This document shows, in pieces, positions 17,271 through 25,508 of a DNA stretch of 36,516 nt (position 1 is its first letter; the number at the start of each line of letters is the position of its first letter). The DNA comes from Thermoplasmata archaeon (GTDB taxonomy: Archaea > Thermoplasmatota > Thermoplasmata > Methanomassiliicoccales > Methanomethylophilaceae), in assembly GCA_015063165.1 (NCBI GenBank), contig SUSZ01000002.1, forward strand, positions 1 through 36,516, written 5' to 3'. The notes below the pieces were generated by a model. It ran no database searches. It saw nothing but the letters and a program-made list of their open reading frames with translations, and was not told the DNA's origin. The position numbers and the translations under genes were made by a program.

Positions 17271-20200
17271 TCAAGGCTTCTTCCTGAGCAGGAGAATACC
17301 GGCTATCGCGCCGACGACGATTACGGCGACGACGGCTCCGATAATCATGGTCCACTGATTGTCCTGAGTCTCGCTTCCCGATCCTACTGTGACGGCGCAG
17401 GACGCGGTGTAGCCTCCGTCGTTGGTCTTGGCGGTTATGGTGGCGGACCCTTCCTTGACAGCGGTGACGTTTCCGTTCTGGTCCACCTTGGCGATAGTTT
17501 CGTCGGAGGAGGTCCAGACGATGCTGGAGTCGGTGGCGTCAGAAGGGCTGACGGTCGCGGATATCTTCGCGGTCATTCCTTCTCTGATGGACAGCGAGGG
17601 CTTGTCCAGAGAGATTCCGGTCACATGCTTGGATATCGCTGTGGCCTCGTAGGTCGCTGTATAGGTGGCATCCGCCTTGGCAGCGGAGAGCGCAGGGGAC
17701 CATCCGGAGAAGGCGTAGGAGTAGCTGTCGTCCGAGGGTCTCGCGGGGGTGCTTCCGCTGTATGCGGGTACCTCGCCGTAGCTGGCAACGGTCTGTACCA
17801 GGTCGCTTCCGTCCCAGTTCTTCCATGTGATATCGAAGACCAGGGGCGTGGTGGTGGCCTCGTAGGTGACGTCGTAGGCGGGCATCAGGAACGCGCCGTT
17901 GATGAAGTAGACGGTCTGCTCGGAGTGCCAGTCGCTCACTTCGTATCCTTCCTTGACGTAGCTCTCGCGGAGCTTCACAGCTTCGCCGAACGCATGGGTC
18001 TCGACGTCTCCGACCTGGGCTCCGTCGACGAGATATGTGACGGTGAAGACGGGCTCGGTGGCGTTGTAGGTGGCTGTGTACGCTGTATCCGAAGTAGCGG
18101 CGACGATCTCAGGGATCCATCCCGCGAAGGAATAGCTGTGCTCGGCGTCGGAGGCCTTGGTGGGTTCGGCTCCGGTGTATATCGGAATCGTACCGTAGGC
18201 CGCTTCGGTGGTTGCCAGTACGTTTCCGTCCCAGTTCTTCCATGTTATCTTGAAGGACGACGATATGCTGGTGGAGACGAAGGTCACGTCATACGCGGGC
18301 ATCAGGAATGTCCCGTCAGCGATGTTCACGTCATCCAGGGGATTCCAAGGGGTGAATGGCCCCTCGTAATCTGCACGGATCTTCACGTTGCTTCCGGCGA
18401 AGTACATCTCGACGTCTCCGACCTGCTTTCCGTCGACCAGATAGGTGACGGCGTGCTTTATCGGAGTCTCGTCGTAGGTTGCGATGTAGGTGGCATTCGA
18501 TGTAGCGGCGACGGGCTCGGGGCTCCATCCCGCAAATGTGAACCTGTATTGGGAGTTGGCATGCCTCGTCGGAGTTCCGGAGTAGGTCGGAACCTCGCCC
18601 TTTTCTACTGTGGAGGTCGCAAGAATAGCATTGTTCCAGTCCTTCCATGTTATGGTGTACGTCTTGACGACTATCGGCACGGGCGTGAACATCGCGGTGT
18701 ACGCGGCATCGGATGTAGCCGCGACTGGCCTGGGGCTCCATCCCGCGAACTCGTAGGTGTAGCCGGAGTCGGCTTCCCTTGAGGGTTCGGTTCCCGAGTA
18801 CGAGGGCATCGCGCCTTCCTTCACGGTTGACGTGGAAAGGACTCTTCCGTCCCAGTTCTTCCAGGTGATCGTGTACGTCTTGACGACTATCGGCACGGGC
18901 GTGAACATCGCGGTGTACGCGGCATCGCCCGTGGTTGCGACGGGCTCGGGACTCCATCCTGCGAACTCGTAGGTGAAAGACGTATCGGCCGGTTTCGAGG
19001 GGGTGTCGTCGCTATAGGTCGGGATTTCGCCTTCTTTCACGGTGGACGTGGAAAGGACGTTTCCGTTCCAGTTCTTCCAGGTGATCGTGTAGGTCTTCGC
19101 GATCACAGGGATGGCATTGTACGTCGCCGTGTAGGTCGCATCGTCCGTAATCGGGCCTATGGAAGGGCTCCATCCGGAGAATGAATAGGTGAATTCGGAA
19201 TCCGAAGGCTTTGAAGGCGTGGACCCGCTGTAAGATGGCGTGGATCCATAGTCTACGGTGGACGTGGAAAGGACGTTTCCGTTCCAGTTCTTCCAGGTTA
19301 CCGTGAGCTCGATGATCGTCGTGGTGGCGTTGAAGGTGACGTCATAGGCGGGCATCAGGAACGCGCCGTTGATGAAGCGGACGGCTTGTTCGGTCTCCCA
19401 GGCGCTCACGGTGAAGCCTTCCTTCTCGTACGCCGCGCGGAGCTTTACAGATTCGTTGTATTCGTGGGTCTTGACGTCTCCGTACTGGATCCCATCGACG
19501 GTGTACTTGACGGTGTATCTCATGGGCGAGGAAGAGTAGGTAGCCGTGTAGGAAGCGTCCGATACGGCTGCCGAGGGTTCCGGGTCCCATCCGTCGAAAG
19601 TGTACGAGCACATGTCGTCCGAGGGCTTGGCAGGCTCCGTTCCGGCGTAGGCTGGGACGACGCCCTCTTCGACCGTGGAGATCAGAAGGACGCTTCCGTC
19701 CCAGTTCTTCCATGTGATCTGGTATGTGTTCTTCTCTATCGGTATGGAATCGAACTGGGCTGTGTACGTCATGTTCGATGTGATCGGCCCTATCGTCGGG
19801 TCCCATCCGGAGAACGTGTAGGCCTACTCGGAATCAGCCGTTCTGGAAGGAGCGGTTCCGGTGTATGAAGGGGTGCTTCCGTAGTCAACGGAGGATTTCG
19901 CAAGGGTGCTTCCGTCCCAGTTCTTCCAGGTGACCGTGAGCTCGATGATCGTCGTGGTGGCGTTGAAGGTGACGTCGTAGGCGGGCATCAGGAACGCGCC
20001 GTTGATGAAGTAGACGGTCTGCTCGGAGTGCCAGGCGCTCACGGTGAAGCCTTCCTTCTCGTACGCTGCGCGGAGCTTCACGCTGTCCCCGACCGTATAC
20101 GTCTCCTTCTCGCCGACCTGGGCCCCGTCCACCAGGTAGGCGACGGTGTATTCGGATCCGGTCCACTGGGCGACGTAGGTTGCGTTCGCGGTGACCGTGG

Positions 20201-23200
20201 CGGATACCGTGGGCGACCAACCGGAGAGCGTGAATCCGGGATTGCCGGCGGGCGTTCCCGAGAATCCAGGCGTTGCGGAGCCGTAAGCGACGGAGTAAGT
20301 CTGGGCATCGAACGTTCCCTGGCTGCCGGGCTCGTACGTCACGGTGTACTTCACGGCCACCTGGGTGTACGATGCGATGTATTCGGCATCAGCGGTGGCG
20401 GCGACAGGGGTCGGAGACCATCCGGAGAACGTGTAGGTGTATCTCGCATCGGACGCTCTGGACGGGATTCCTTCGTATGAAGGGGCCATGCCCTCGTCGA
20501 CGATGGTCGTGGACAGGACGCTTCCGTCCCAGTTCTTCCATGTTATAGTGTATGTCTTGACGACTATCGGCATGGGCTCGAACACCGCGGTGTACGCGGC
20601 ATCGCCAGTGGCTGCGACGGGCTCGGGGTTCCATCCCGCGAACTCGTAGGTGTAGCCGGAGTCTGCGTCCCTTGCGGGTTCGGTTCCCGCGTACGAAGGC
20701 ATCGCGCCCTCCTTCACGGTTGACGTGGAAAGGACGCTTCCGTCCCAGTTCTTCCATGTTATCGTGTAGGAAGGGGATTCGACAGTCAGGGTGCAGGTGT
20801 CGGTGTATCCGCCGTCCGCGGTGGTCACGGTGATCGTAGCGGTTCCGGCCGATAGCACCTTGACGACCCCGTTGCTGACGGTCGCTACGTTGCTGTCGCT
20901 GGTGGACCAGGTCACAGAGCGGTCTGTGGCGTTCGAAGGGCTCACCGTGGCCGTGAGGGTCACCGTGTCGCCGACAGCGGCGGAGTCCGTGTTCTTGTCC
21001 AAGGAGACGGACGTTACGCTGATCGTCGGGTCTCCGACGGTGATGGTGCAGGTGGCGGTCCTTCCGTTGCTGGAGGTGGCGGTGATGACAGCTGTTCCGA
21101 AGGACACTCCGGTCACCGTTCCGTTCTTCACGGCGGCTACGCTGGAATCGCTGGTGGACCATTCAAGGGTCCTGATCCCGGCGTTGGACGGGTTGAAGTT
21201 CACTTCCAGCTCGTACTCCTCGCCGATGCCGATGGTCTTCGCCTTCTCGTCGAAGGATATGCTGGAGACGGCGACGTTGTGCCTTATGCAGTAGAGGATC
21301 CCTCTGTCGTTGGTGTAGACGATGCCTCCGTCCTCGAGGAAGTGGACCTGCTGGCTGCAGTACTGGGAGATAGCCACGTTCTCCATGTAGGATAGCGTCA
21401 GGTTGTTCGTCCTCAGGTCGTGCTCGACGACCATGAGGTTCGGCGATTCCACATAGGGTACGATGTAGGCGTACACCTTTCCGGGATGGCCGGTGGAGAT
21501 AGCCATGCTTCCATGGGCGTACAGCTTCGTGCTGTCCAGGGTGGCGAGGACGTCCATGGTCTCGAGGTCGTAGACGCTGAAGGTTCCGTCGGAGAAGACG
21601 TATCCCTTGCCTTCGTTGATGATCATTGCCGAGCTGTAGCTGCTCTTCTCTCCGTTGGATCTGACCTTGAGGGAGGCGTGGTCGAACACTCCGTTCTCGT
21701 CGATCTTAACAGATGCGACGTTGTAGATCTTTCCTCTCTGCGAATCGAATATCCCAGAGAGGTAGGTGGTGACGGTGGCGTATCCTTCGCCCACGTCGAT
21801 GTACCCCTTGTTGGAATACTGTCCCTTGAACTCGGGGATGTATATCTTGTCTATCATCTCCCCGGTCTTGGCGTCGCTGGTCTGGAGATATACGTCCCGT
21901 CCGTCCTCGTCGTATCCGCAGACCATGATGAATCCGTTGTGGAACACCATATGGGTTCCGCCCTCGTACATGGTGACGAAGGATCCCGTGTCCTTGGTCC
22001 AGACTGGCGCCTGGAGGTTGGTGGGATTGCTGGGGTCGCTGTCCTCTGCCTTGTAGCAGGAGGTTCCGTTCTTGGTCTCGACGTAGAAGTATCCGTCGTG
22101 GTAGAACGCCTTGGCGGTGGTGGCGTTGAGGACGAAGAGCTGGTTCAGGTCGGTGTCGTATACCTTTCCGGTGATGCCGTCCAGGACCATGTTCCCTCCG
22201 ACCGCGACATACTCATAGAATCCGCTGAACGAGGCGGCGGTCTTCACGCTCTTGACGAGCCTTCCGTCGTCCGCGTCTATCTTGAGAAGGATGTTGTCGT
22301 TCTTTGCGTAGATGTAGCCTCCTATAATCGCGGGGGCGTAGACCATGTTCTTGAAAGAGGCTCCCGCGGTTCCGCCGGACCCGAACATCCAGGAGGACAC
22401 GTAGTCGTCGGGGGTGGGGGTGTCTTTGTCGGTGGAGTTGATGAAGGAGCCTGAGGCGTAGTAGGCGGATTCCACGCGGACGGAGGTGTCGCTCTCGATC
22501 TCGATCTCCATGGACGAGGCGGGTCCGGATTCTGCTCCGTTGATGGACCATGAGGTGGATTCGTACCCTTCGTTCGGGACGAAGACGAGATTGGCTATCG
22601 AACCTGTCACGACGCTCGTTCCGGAGGACGCTGGGGCAGAGGATCCGTTGATGTACGCCAGGATCTTCCCGTTCTCCGCATCGAACGTCAGCTTGTACTT
22701 CGCAGCGCTCTGGGAGGCCCACTTCGCGTAGACCGTGGTATTGCTCTCCACCGCTCCGAAGTCGTAGAGTTCGGTGCGCTCGGAGGAAGTGTACCATCCC
22801 AGGAAGGCGTATCCGCTCTTGGTCGGGACGGCGGGAACGGTGGCGGAGGCTCCCTCGAGGACGCTCTGGGGGCTCACTGAAGATCCGCCGTCGGTGTCGA
22901 ACGAGACGGTGACCTTTCCCTTTTCCGTTACTCCGGCGACGGTTATCATGGTGTCATGGAGGATGACGAAGGAGTATACGCGGCACTTGTCGGTGCTGTA
23001 GTCGGCCTTGGCGGTGGTGCCGTCCACCTTGGCGGCGTACGAGGACGAGAACTGGTATCCGGGCAGGCAGCGGACCTCGAAGAGCACTGTGCTCCCGTGG
23101 ACCACGTCCCGGCTTTCGGAGACGGAGAAGCTGTACCCGGTTCCGGACGGGCACTTGACGTCGTAGAGGTTGAGCGCTATTCCGGAGATGACGACTTCGG

Positions 23201-25508
23201 TGTCTCCGGGAACCCCCTTCAGAACGAACATGCCGGCGATGTCCTTTCCTCCGATGGTTCCGCTGGAGGCGGTGGGCACGGCCTTCCCGTTGCTCTTGGC
23301 CTGTATGACGGAGTCGGTGTACCCGGTGTTCGGGGTGACCGAGAACGCGATGTCGTTCCCGGAGTGGACCTCCGTGAAGTCCACGTTCAGGGGGTCGTTG
23401 ATCGTGAAGATCACCCTCCCGCTGCTGACGTCCGCGAAGAATCCGGAAAGGACGATGTCGCTGCACTTTTCGGCGTCGTATCCTCCGTCCAGGAAGTACG
23501 CCTTCGCATTCCCGAGGCTAATCGCTTCGGTGTCGAGGTGGGGAGAGCCGTAGAACAGTATCCTCTGGAGGTTGGGGTTGGAGGATATCGCGTACGAATC
23601 CACGTTCTCGACCGATTCGGGGATGGTTATGCTCCTAGCGTTGGTCAGGCCGCTCATGGAGAGCGAGTCTATCCTGGTGGTGCCTTCCTTTATCTCGGGC
23701 GATGCTGCGGAGGGGGCTACGTAGAGGAGCTCGTCGCCCATGTAGACGGCTCCGTCGGAGCATACGATCGAGGGGTTGGCGGAGGTTATCTTTCCGCCTT
23801 TGCCGACGGTGCTGGCAAGAGCTTCGTTGGAGAATCCTACGCAGTCGGACCCGACGGATATGCTGGATGAGGACGGGGCGATGCAGACCTTGCCGGTGGC
23901 GTATCCGCTTCCGGAGGGGACCTTGACAGTGAGGTATCCGCCCTCCAGCAAGGTTTTCAGGTCCCTTTCGAACATGTTGTCGTCCTCGAACGGGACGCCG
24001 CTGTGGACGATGATCTCGTCCAGCTTGCCGCAGTTCACGAACGCGTTGGAGTTGACGACCTTCAGCATTCCATACGTCTCGATCGTCTGGAGGCTGCTGC
24101 ATCCGTTGAAGCAGTACCCGGGGATGCGGGTGTACGAGCCGAGGAAGGTGGCTTTCTTGAGATTCGTGGCGCCTCTGAGCATCTGATCCCCTATTCCGTC
24201 GGGGTCGAGGGTGGACGGGATGGTGATCTCGGCGAGCCCCGTTGCCGAGAACGCGTACTTTCCGATGGTCTTCACCTGGGCGGGGATCTCGAAGCTGGTC
24301 AGGTTATCGCACTTGTACAGCATGTAGTCGGGGATCGCCGTCATGGAGTCGCAGAGGGAGACGGATCTCAGGGATTTGCACTCCGCGAACATGTTGGCTC
24401 CGGCTTCCGAGCCGTCATGGAACTCGAAAGATTCCAGTGCGGAGCATCCCGAGAACGCCTTCGTTCCGTATTTGATCCCGGACGAGACATCGACATTCTT
24501 CAGAGAGGTGCACTTCTCGAACGCCCTGTCTCCGACGGCGTTGATCTCCTTGGGGATGGTTATGGATTCCAGGGAGCAGCAGTTGGAGAACGACCCTTCG
24601 TTGATTATCGTGATGGCGGTCGGGAGCGTCACGCTCTTGAGGATGGAGCTGTTGGCTGAAGAGCTCGCGAAGGCGTAGTTGCCCACTCCAAGGACGTTCT
24701 TGTCGAAGGTAATGGACTCTATCTTCGCGTTGTAGAACCCGTAGTCGGCGACGGTCATCACCGTGGACGGTACATGAAGGCTCTTCAGAGAGACCTTGCT
24801 GAACGCTCCGCTGCCTATGGTGGTGACGCTCGCGGGTATTGTGTAGGTTCCGATGTCGGCAGGCACGTAGGCGAGGATCCCTCCGCTTATCAGAGGCTTC
24901 GATATGCCTGTTCCTTCGAACGGAGCCGTTCCTAGCCCGGCAGTTTCAGGAATATCGAACGAAGTCAGCGATTCGCAGTCGCGGAAAGCGTAGTTCCCTA
25001 TCTCGATGAGCTCTCCGAACTTGACGCTGGTGAGCGACGAGCACTTGTCGAACGTGTAGGCCTGAATCGTGGTCGCCGATTCGGCGGTGACCGACTTCAA
25101 TGAAGTGCAGGAGGAGAAGCATTGGCCCACTATGTTCAGGACGCCGTTCATCGTCACGGATTTCAGGCCAGTGCAGGCGTTGAAGCATTTGGTGGGGAGG
25201 GTCATGATCGTATTCGGCAGAACGATGGATGTCAGGTTTGCGTTGTTCGCGAAGCTTCTGGCCAGAGTGTCGACCGTGTACGATTTTCCTTCATAATCGA
25301 CGGATGAAGGGATTTCAACGTCCCCGCTCATCGTAGCGATGGAGTCCGCGGTGACGGTAGCGGTCCTTCCGCCGTCGTCCGTCAGGCTGTATTTTATGCC
25401 GTCTATGGTGACAGTCGTGCCGTCGGCCTCTCCCGGAACAGAAATAGCCGCGAGCACGATCGTAGCCACCAGGAAGATGGACAAGACGGCTTTTGCGATA
25501 TTGTTCAT
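17271..25508 (-). CDS. Giant surface protein (BspA-LRR, propeller, Ig-like and W-K-N-W repeats) with one in-frame TAG
   Basis: Secreted or anchored adhesin-like protein, 2745 codons if the TAG at 19824-19826 (codon 1895) is read. Order: signal peptide (MNNIAKAVLSIFLVATIVLAA), BspA-type LRR_5 repeats to about 620, a Listeria-Bacteroides-type repeat near 861-931 (VSFDTDGGSSVSP..GYAFLGWYT..YAKW), a PQQ/WD-like propeller about 1043-1399, two BIG_2 Ig-like domains (1406-1579), then ten repeats of TWKNWDG...Y.G..P......Y.F.GW.P, interspersed with VTYLVDG..VGDVE..FLMPAYDVTF units. A last BIG_2 domain and the anchor WTMIIGAVVAVIVVGAIAGILLL-RKKP follow. The TAG lies inside repeat 3 at an aromatic position, and the frame is intact on both sides. 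Start ATG 25508 has GAGGTG five bases upstream. If TAG stops translation, an unanchored 1894-residue protein results. Confidence 0.8.
17640..20780 (-). repeat. Ten tandem coding repeats of about 70 residues (W-K-N-W units)
   Basis: About 3.1 kb of the giant gene is made of diverged copies of a unit starting T.TWKNWDG, continuing .L.TSTV..G..PSY.GT.P and ending Y.F.GW.PEP....DA.YTA. Four copies are followed by a second unit ending FLMPAYDVTF. Neighbouring copies keep long near-identical DNA stretches (for example around 18640-18940 and 20520-20760), so recombination between them can change repeat number. The unit resembles InlB B-type/Listeria-Bacteroides repeats. Confidence 0.85.

Follow-up and report, generated by a model that had tools for sequence, protein, structure and literature searches.

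A single in-frame TAG, at codon 1895 of a giant reading frame in an archaeal genome, raises the question of how this codon is read in a predicted surface protein: as pyrrolysine (Pyl), as a stop, or as both. The window analysed, that is the whole stretch of 36,516 nucleotides, carries the frame on its minus strand. Translation bore out the first-pass annotation, in which the frame had been traced from ATG 25508 to TGA 17271, and exactly one internal stop was found. Under the standard code the gene would be annotated as two pieces (25508-19824 and 19772-17271). LRR_5 (BspA-type leucine-rich repeats), Flg_new and Big_2 were matched by Pfam in the read-through protein; together with a signal segment and a C-terminal anchor, the two termini being read by eye, these are the marks of a BspA-LRR/Flg_new adhesin-like protein. 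The features were placed as follows.

17271 to 25508, minus strand: single gene for a putative surface protein, 2,745 residues (translation; Pfam on the read-through protein; orthologue in the relative G046)
25425 to 25508, minus strand: N-terminal hydrophobic signal-like segment MNNIAKAVLSIFLVATIVLAAISVPGEA (sequence; the G046 orthologue has the same start and a similar segment)
17631 to 20774, minus strand: array with ten InlB-like beta repeats, other repeat types lying between some of them (repeat comparison)
20774 to 20562 and 20558 to 20346, minus strand: InlB-like repeats 1 and 2
19946 to 19734 and 19730 to 19518, minus strand: InlB-like repeats 3 (TAG-bearing) and 4
19824 to 19826, minus strand: in-frame TAG, codon 1895, proposed pyrrolysine codon (translation; repeat and orthologue alignment)
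19313 to 19101, 19097 to 18885, 18881 to 18669 and 18665 to 18453, minus strand: InlB-like repeats 5 to 8
18260 to 18048 and 17843 to 17631, minus strand: InlB-like repeats 9 and 10
17274 to 17354, minus strand: C-terminal hydrophobic anchor and basic tail WTMIIGAVVAVIVVGAIAGILLLRKKP (sequence; the G046 orthologue ends likewise)

The InlB-like repeats share the motif TWK(N/D)W...F(S/A/D)GW. Repeat alignment placed the TAG, in the context ADSE-TAG-AYTFSGW, inside the third of the ten, and the motif was seen to carry on past the codon, as had been described earlier. In the other nine repeats the same codon is TAC five times, TTC twice, TGC once and CAC once. Homology across the in-frame TAG, a mark of Pyl proteins, was found both in this continuing motif and in the orthologue of G046, which is uninterrupted and 61% identical over residues 1-2136. 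The 850 codons 3' of the TAG are open and have a strong coding bias, so that the frame is not due to chance. The sole hydrophobic C-terminal segment with a basic tail, read by eye, lies downstream of the TAG, which agrees with the claim that the only membrane anchor is encoded there. The TAG repeat was modelled confidently by AlphaFold (pLDDT 95.6) with Pyl replaced by K, and codon 1895 falls at the beginning of the third beta strand; among the closest PDB folds to this model are SHIRT domains and the B-repeat of Listeria InlB, as weak matches (best E 9e-3). The 10-bp palindrome GTAGGCCTAC to which attention had been drawn at the TAG is real, but was rejected as a meaningful element, being one of 48 perfect 10-bp palindromes in the window.

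The genes for Pyl decoding that were searched for (pylS, pylBCD and tRNA-Pyl) were all found, in one cluster. The tRNA-Pyl, with a CUA anticodon (L050 17545-17615, minus strand; G000:C34), lies beside pylS, which matched TIGR02367 with 255 bits against a cut-off of 178, and pylB, pylC and pylD adjoin pylS (TIGR03910, TIGR03909 and TIGR03911, all over the NCBIfam cut-off). In the pyl region mttB and mtbB have an in-frame TAG, with matches that run across it, and a second gene scoring as mttB on another contig has an in-frame TAG that is likewise crossed by the match. A pylS match was obtained in 22 of the 24 genus-mates searched, the two without one being G002 (61% complete) and G006 (82% complete), and in 3 of the 16 relatives that belong to other families within the order.

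Stop-codon statistics were drawn from a 628-kb sample, taken as stretches and making up 27.6% of the 2.28-Mb genome, with ORFs from a home-made codon-bias gene caller that has a few wrong-frame ORFs among its calls. The 468 ORFs called ended in TGA (383), TAA (55) or TAG (30). A coding-like extension in frame was present at 13 of 29 TAG ends, as against 22 of 376 TGA and 2 of 55 TAA ends (P=1.9e-8), and some of the TGA extensions at least are the next gene in the same frame, as with pylS and then pylB. Given these TAG-specific run-ons, TAG is therefore widely a sense codon in this genome, and extrapolation from the sample suggests about 45-50 genes with in-frame TAGs genome-wide. Among the extended genes are those for a UvrD-like helicase, a kinase and a nitroreductase, as well as three methyltransferases, transposases and Sel1-repeat proteins. 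Pfam or PADLOC matches cross the TAGs in the UvrD helicase, the kinase, the nitroreductase, a transposase and Sel1 repeats, and also in a UG5-nitrilase reverse transcriptase. This defence reverse transcriptase (L072:4514-7339, minus strand; G000:C55) has in-frame TAGs at three codons, including one tandem pair, and when they are read the PADLOC profile is covered over 26-895 of its 907 positions (E 1.8e-196); it is apparently an anti-phage gene dependent on pyrrolysine decoding. The control relative G036, which is without pylS, has no such excess: one of its 10 TAG ends ran on (P=0.45), and this case, a join of two unrelated sets of domains, resembles a pair of adjacent genes. An excess of TAG run-ons that G036 does not share speaks against base error or random nonsense mutation as their general cause. 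Further in-frame TAGs were found in the pylS-bearing genus-mates G001, G007 and G014, in the last of these in a nucleoside-phosphorylase-like gene (L157:8638-10164, plus strand) and in a TruA-like tRNA pseudouridine synthase-like gene (L165:2932-3714, plus strand). Both of the G014 genes are of a housekeeping type.

UAG is not purely sense, since after removal of the run-ons apparent TAG ends persist in about 13-14 of the ~450 sampled genes (~3%), a set that may partly consist of wrong-frame ORFs of the simple caller. Some TAG-ended genes have a complete domain before the TAG (Cys/Met PLP enzyme, DUF169, GNAT), and in some a second in-frame stop follows within a few codons. Because about 3% of genes apparently end this way, a minor truncated product at codon 1895 is conceivable. 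Five TAG-ended ORFs, unlike the remaining sample, are clustered within 9 kb (L059:3784-12900, plus strand; G000:C45). No PHROGs match was obtained for those searched, but two ORFs lying downstream gave matches, to PHROGs whose function is unknown; the cluster may be an integrated element that uses stop codons differently.

When orthologues were aligned at codon 1895, sense codons were found in all three relatives, namely CAC in G046, TAT in G045 and TAC in G044. No TAG was present in any other match listed for this repeat among 31 genomes of the genus, each species being represented by one genome. Because the orthologues are uninterrupted at the site, the TAG is a lineage-specific substitution of a codon that specifies Tyr or His in relatives. 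Against G046, dN/dS was 0.28 in the N-terminal part, 0.36 in the repeats that precede the TAG and 0.39 in the part that follows; no relaxation after the TAG was seen in this comparison, whose power is low for a recent mutation.

We propose that this archaeon routinely reads UAG as Pyl, and that within one repeat of the surface protein a codon of Tyr or His type became TAG. The change would have been tolerated as a substitution because charged tRNA-Pyl would compete well with the release factor; that Pyl insertion rests on a competition of this kind has been proposed before (PMC8211752). The main product would be the full-length, membrane-anchored protein of 2,745 residues, with a single Pyl at residue 1895, predicted to stand at the start of a beta strand of an InlB-like repeat. 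Judged from the sequence evidence, it is quite probable that UAG is routinely Pyl and that the gene gives mainly this one full-length anchored protein. The Pyl read-through suggested by the first-pass annotation is in this respect well supported, by the pyl cassette and the widespread in-frame TAGs, but the surface switch that had been attached to it is not.

The counter-hypothesis raised at the outset was a TAC-to-TAG nonsense mutation, by which the gene would be in the course of being lost or truncated and its 3' part would be a recent relic. A lone, unconserved TAG in a fast-evolving gene is what such a mutation would leave, and a repeat array of the same kind in G011 (L177; G011:C201) is broken by a TAA, which is not explicable by Pyl and indicates that true nonsense mutations do happen in such genes. 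However, the 850 downstream codons are intact and keep their coding bias, dN/dS is alike on the two sides of the TAG (0.39 after it against 0.36 in the preceding repeats, with low power if the TAG is recent), and a cell with the Pyl machinery should read UAG anyway. Furthermore, the interruptions across the genome are TAG-specific (P=2e-8), whereas random mutation would also yield TGA and TAA. We therefore consider a nonsense mutation unlikely.

It was also suggested that the TAG might act as a decoding-based switch. UAG would then be kept ambiguous, and through regulated read-through the supply of Pyl, hence of methylamine, would set the ratio of a shed form of 1,894 residues to the anchored form of 2,745 residues, large surface proteins being a mix of released and anchored molecules. 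The anchor does lie downstream of the TAG, TAG apparently still ends some genes, so that both outcomes are conceivable, and in Acetohalobium arabaticum UAG was reported to be Pyl on trimethylamine only (PMC8211752). An ambiguous UAG would take in as well a surface protein of G007 (L139:11523-13350, plus strand), which has a signal-like N-terminus, a weak Flg_new match and a hydrophobic segment at its C-terminus; its two in-frame TAGs precede that membrane segment. Nonetheless, the TAG is conserved in no orthologue or related repeat found, and where programmed read-through would call for a conserved stop, G044, G045 and G046 have sense codons. In the 628-kb sample surface proteins show no excess of in-frame TAGs, as they account for 1 of about 13-15 in-frame TAG genes against 12% of the sampled codons for surface-type ORFs, and TAGs are found in soluble enzymes also, where truncation would yield no shed form. 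The TAG interrupts a repeat domain midway, where a functional end would be ill placed, and for this order it has been suggested that archaea cope with Pyl through codon avoidance and not regulation (PMC3941956). The 103 nt after the TAG are not unusually structured (folding z-score -0.86), on which ground a downstream PYLIS-like structure or cis element was rejected. With no conservation of the TAG, no surface enrichment and no downstream structure, the switch is left unsupported and seems very unlikely. As a separate observation, leucine-rich repeat proteins with in-frame TAGs occur in G012, G013 and G001, with no C-terminal anchor in the sequences examined; that of G012 (L187:1454-3959, minus strand; G012:C69) has three, of which one falls within a leucine-rich repeat and the other two lie close to the C-terminus.

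The genome is a draft of 67 contigs and the region is rich in repeats (~70% alike in DNA), but an assembly or base error that turned TAC into TAG is highly improbable, as the 251-bp segment with the TAG is unique in the genome (next match 72% identical), which makes repeat collapse an unlikely source, and random error would not give TAG-specific interruptions elsewhere.

In the methylamine methyltransferases MtmB, MtbB and MttB, Pyl is conserved and catalytic. The surface protein gene has in common with them an in-frame UAG, here proposed to be Pyl, but the residue is unconserved and lies in a structural repeat. In 2025, Kivenson and colleagues are said to have proposed that archaea use all of their TAG codons as Pyl; TAG is widely sense in the present genome as in those archaea, but unlike them it retains some apparent TAG terminators. 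In 'Ca. Methanomethylophilus alvus', passages of Borrel et al. (2014, PMC4153887) report 16 putative Pyl proteins besides the methyltransferases, TAG terminators at 1.6%, and TAG-free homologues in two other genomes for half of the candidates, and propose that in-frame amber codons become stable mutations. According to these passages, M. alvus resembles the present archaeon in being a methanogen whose pyl cassette is complete, in its rare use of TAG as terminator (1.6% there, ~3% here) and in having in-frame TAG in unrelated genes; the difference lies in the number of TAG genes (16 there, ~45-50 by extrapolation here) and in the giant surface protein, of which the passages on M. alvus make no mention. 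Adhesin-like Flg_new proteins have already been described in M. alvi (PMC10673518). Like these, the protein is long, membrane-bound and has Flg_new (Listeria-Bacteroides) repeats; unlike them, it has BspA-type leucine-rich repeats, Big_2 and an in-frame TAG, and TAG or amber codons are not mentioned in that paper. The case is an extension of the known M. alvus Pyl candidates and Flg_new adhesins to a giant surface protein.

These results suggest that the reach of Pyl in gut-type methanogens goes well beyond methylamine enzymes, to structural proteins of the surface and as far as a defence reverse transcriptase. As standard annotation halves such genes and loses the membrane anchor, the surface proteomes of these methanogens are probably mis-predicted. 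Pyl on the cell surface, if true, would be a chemically distinctive mark that is open to detection.
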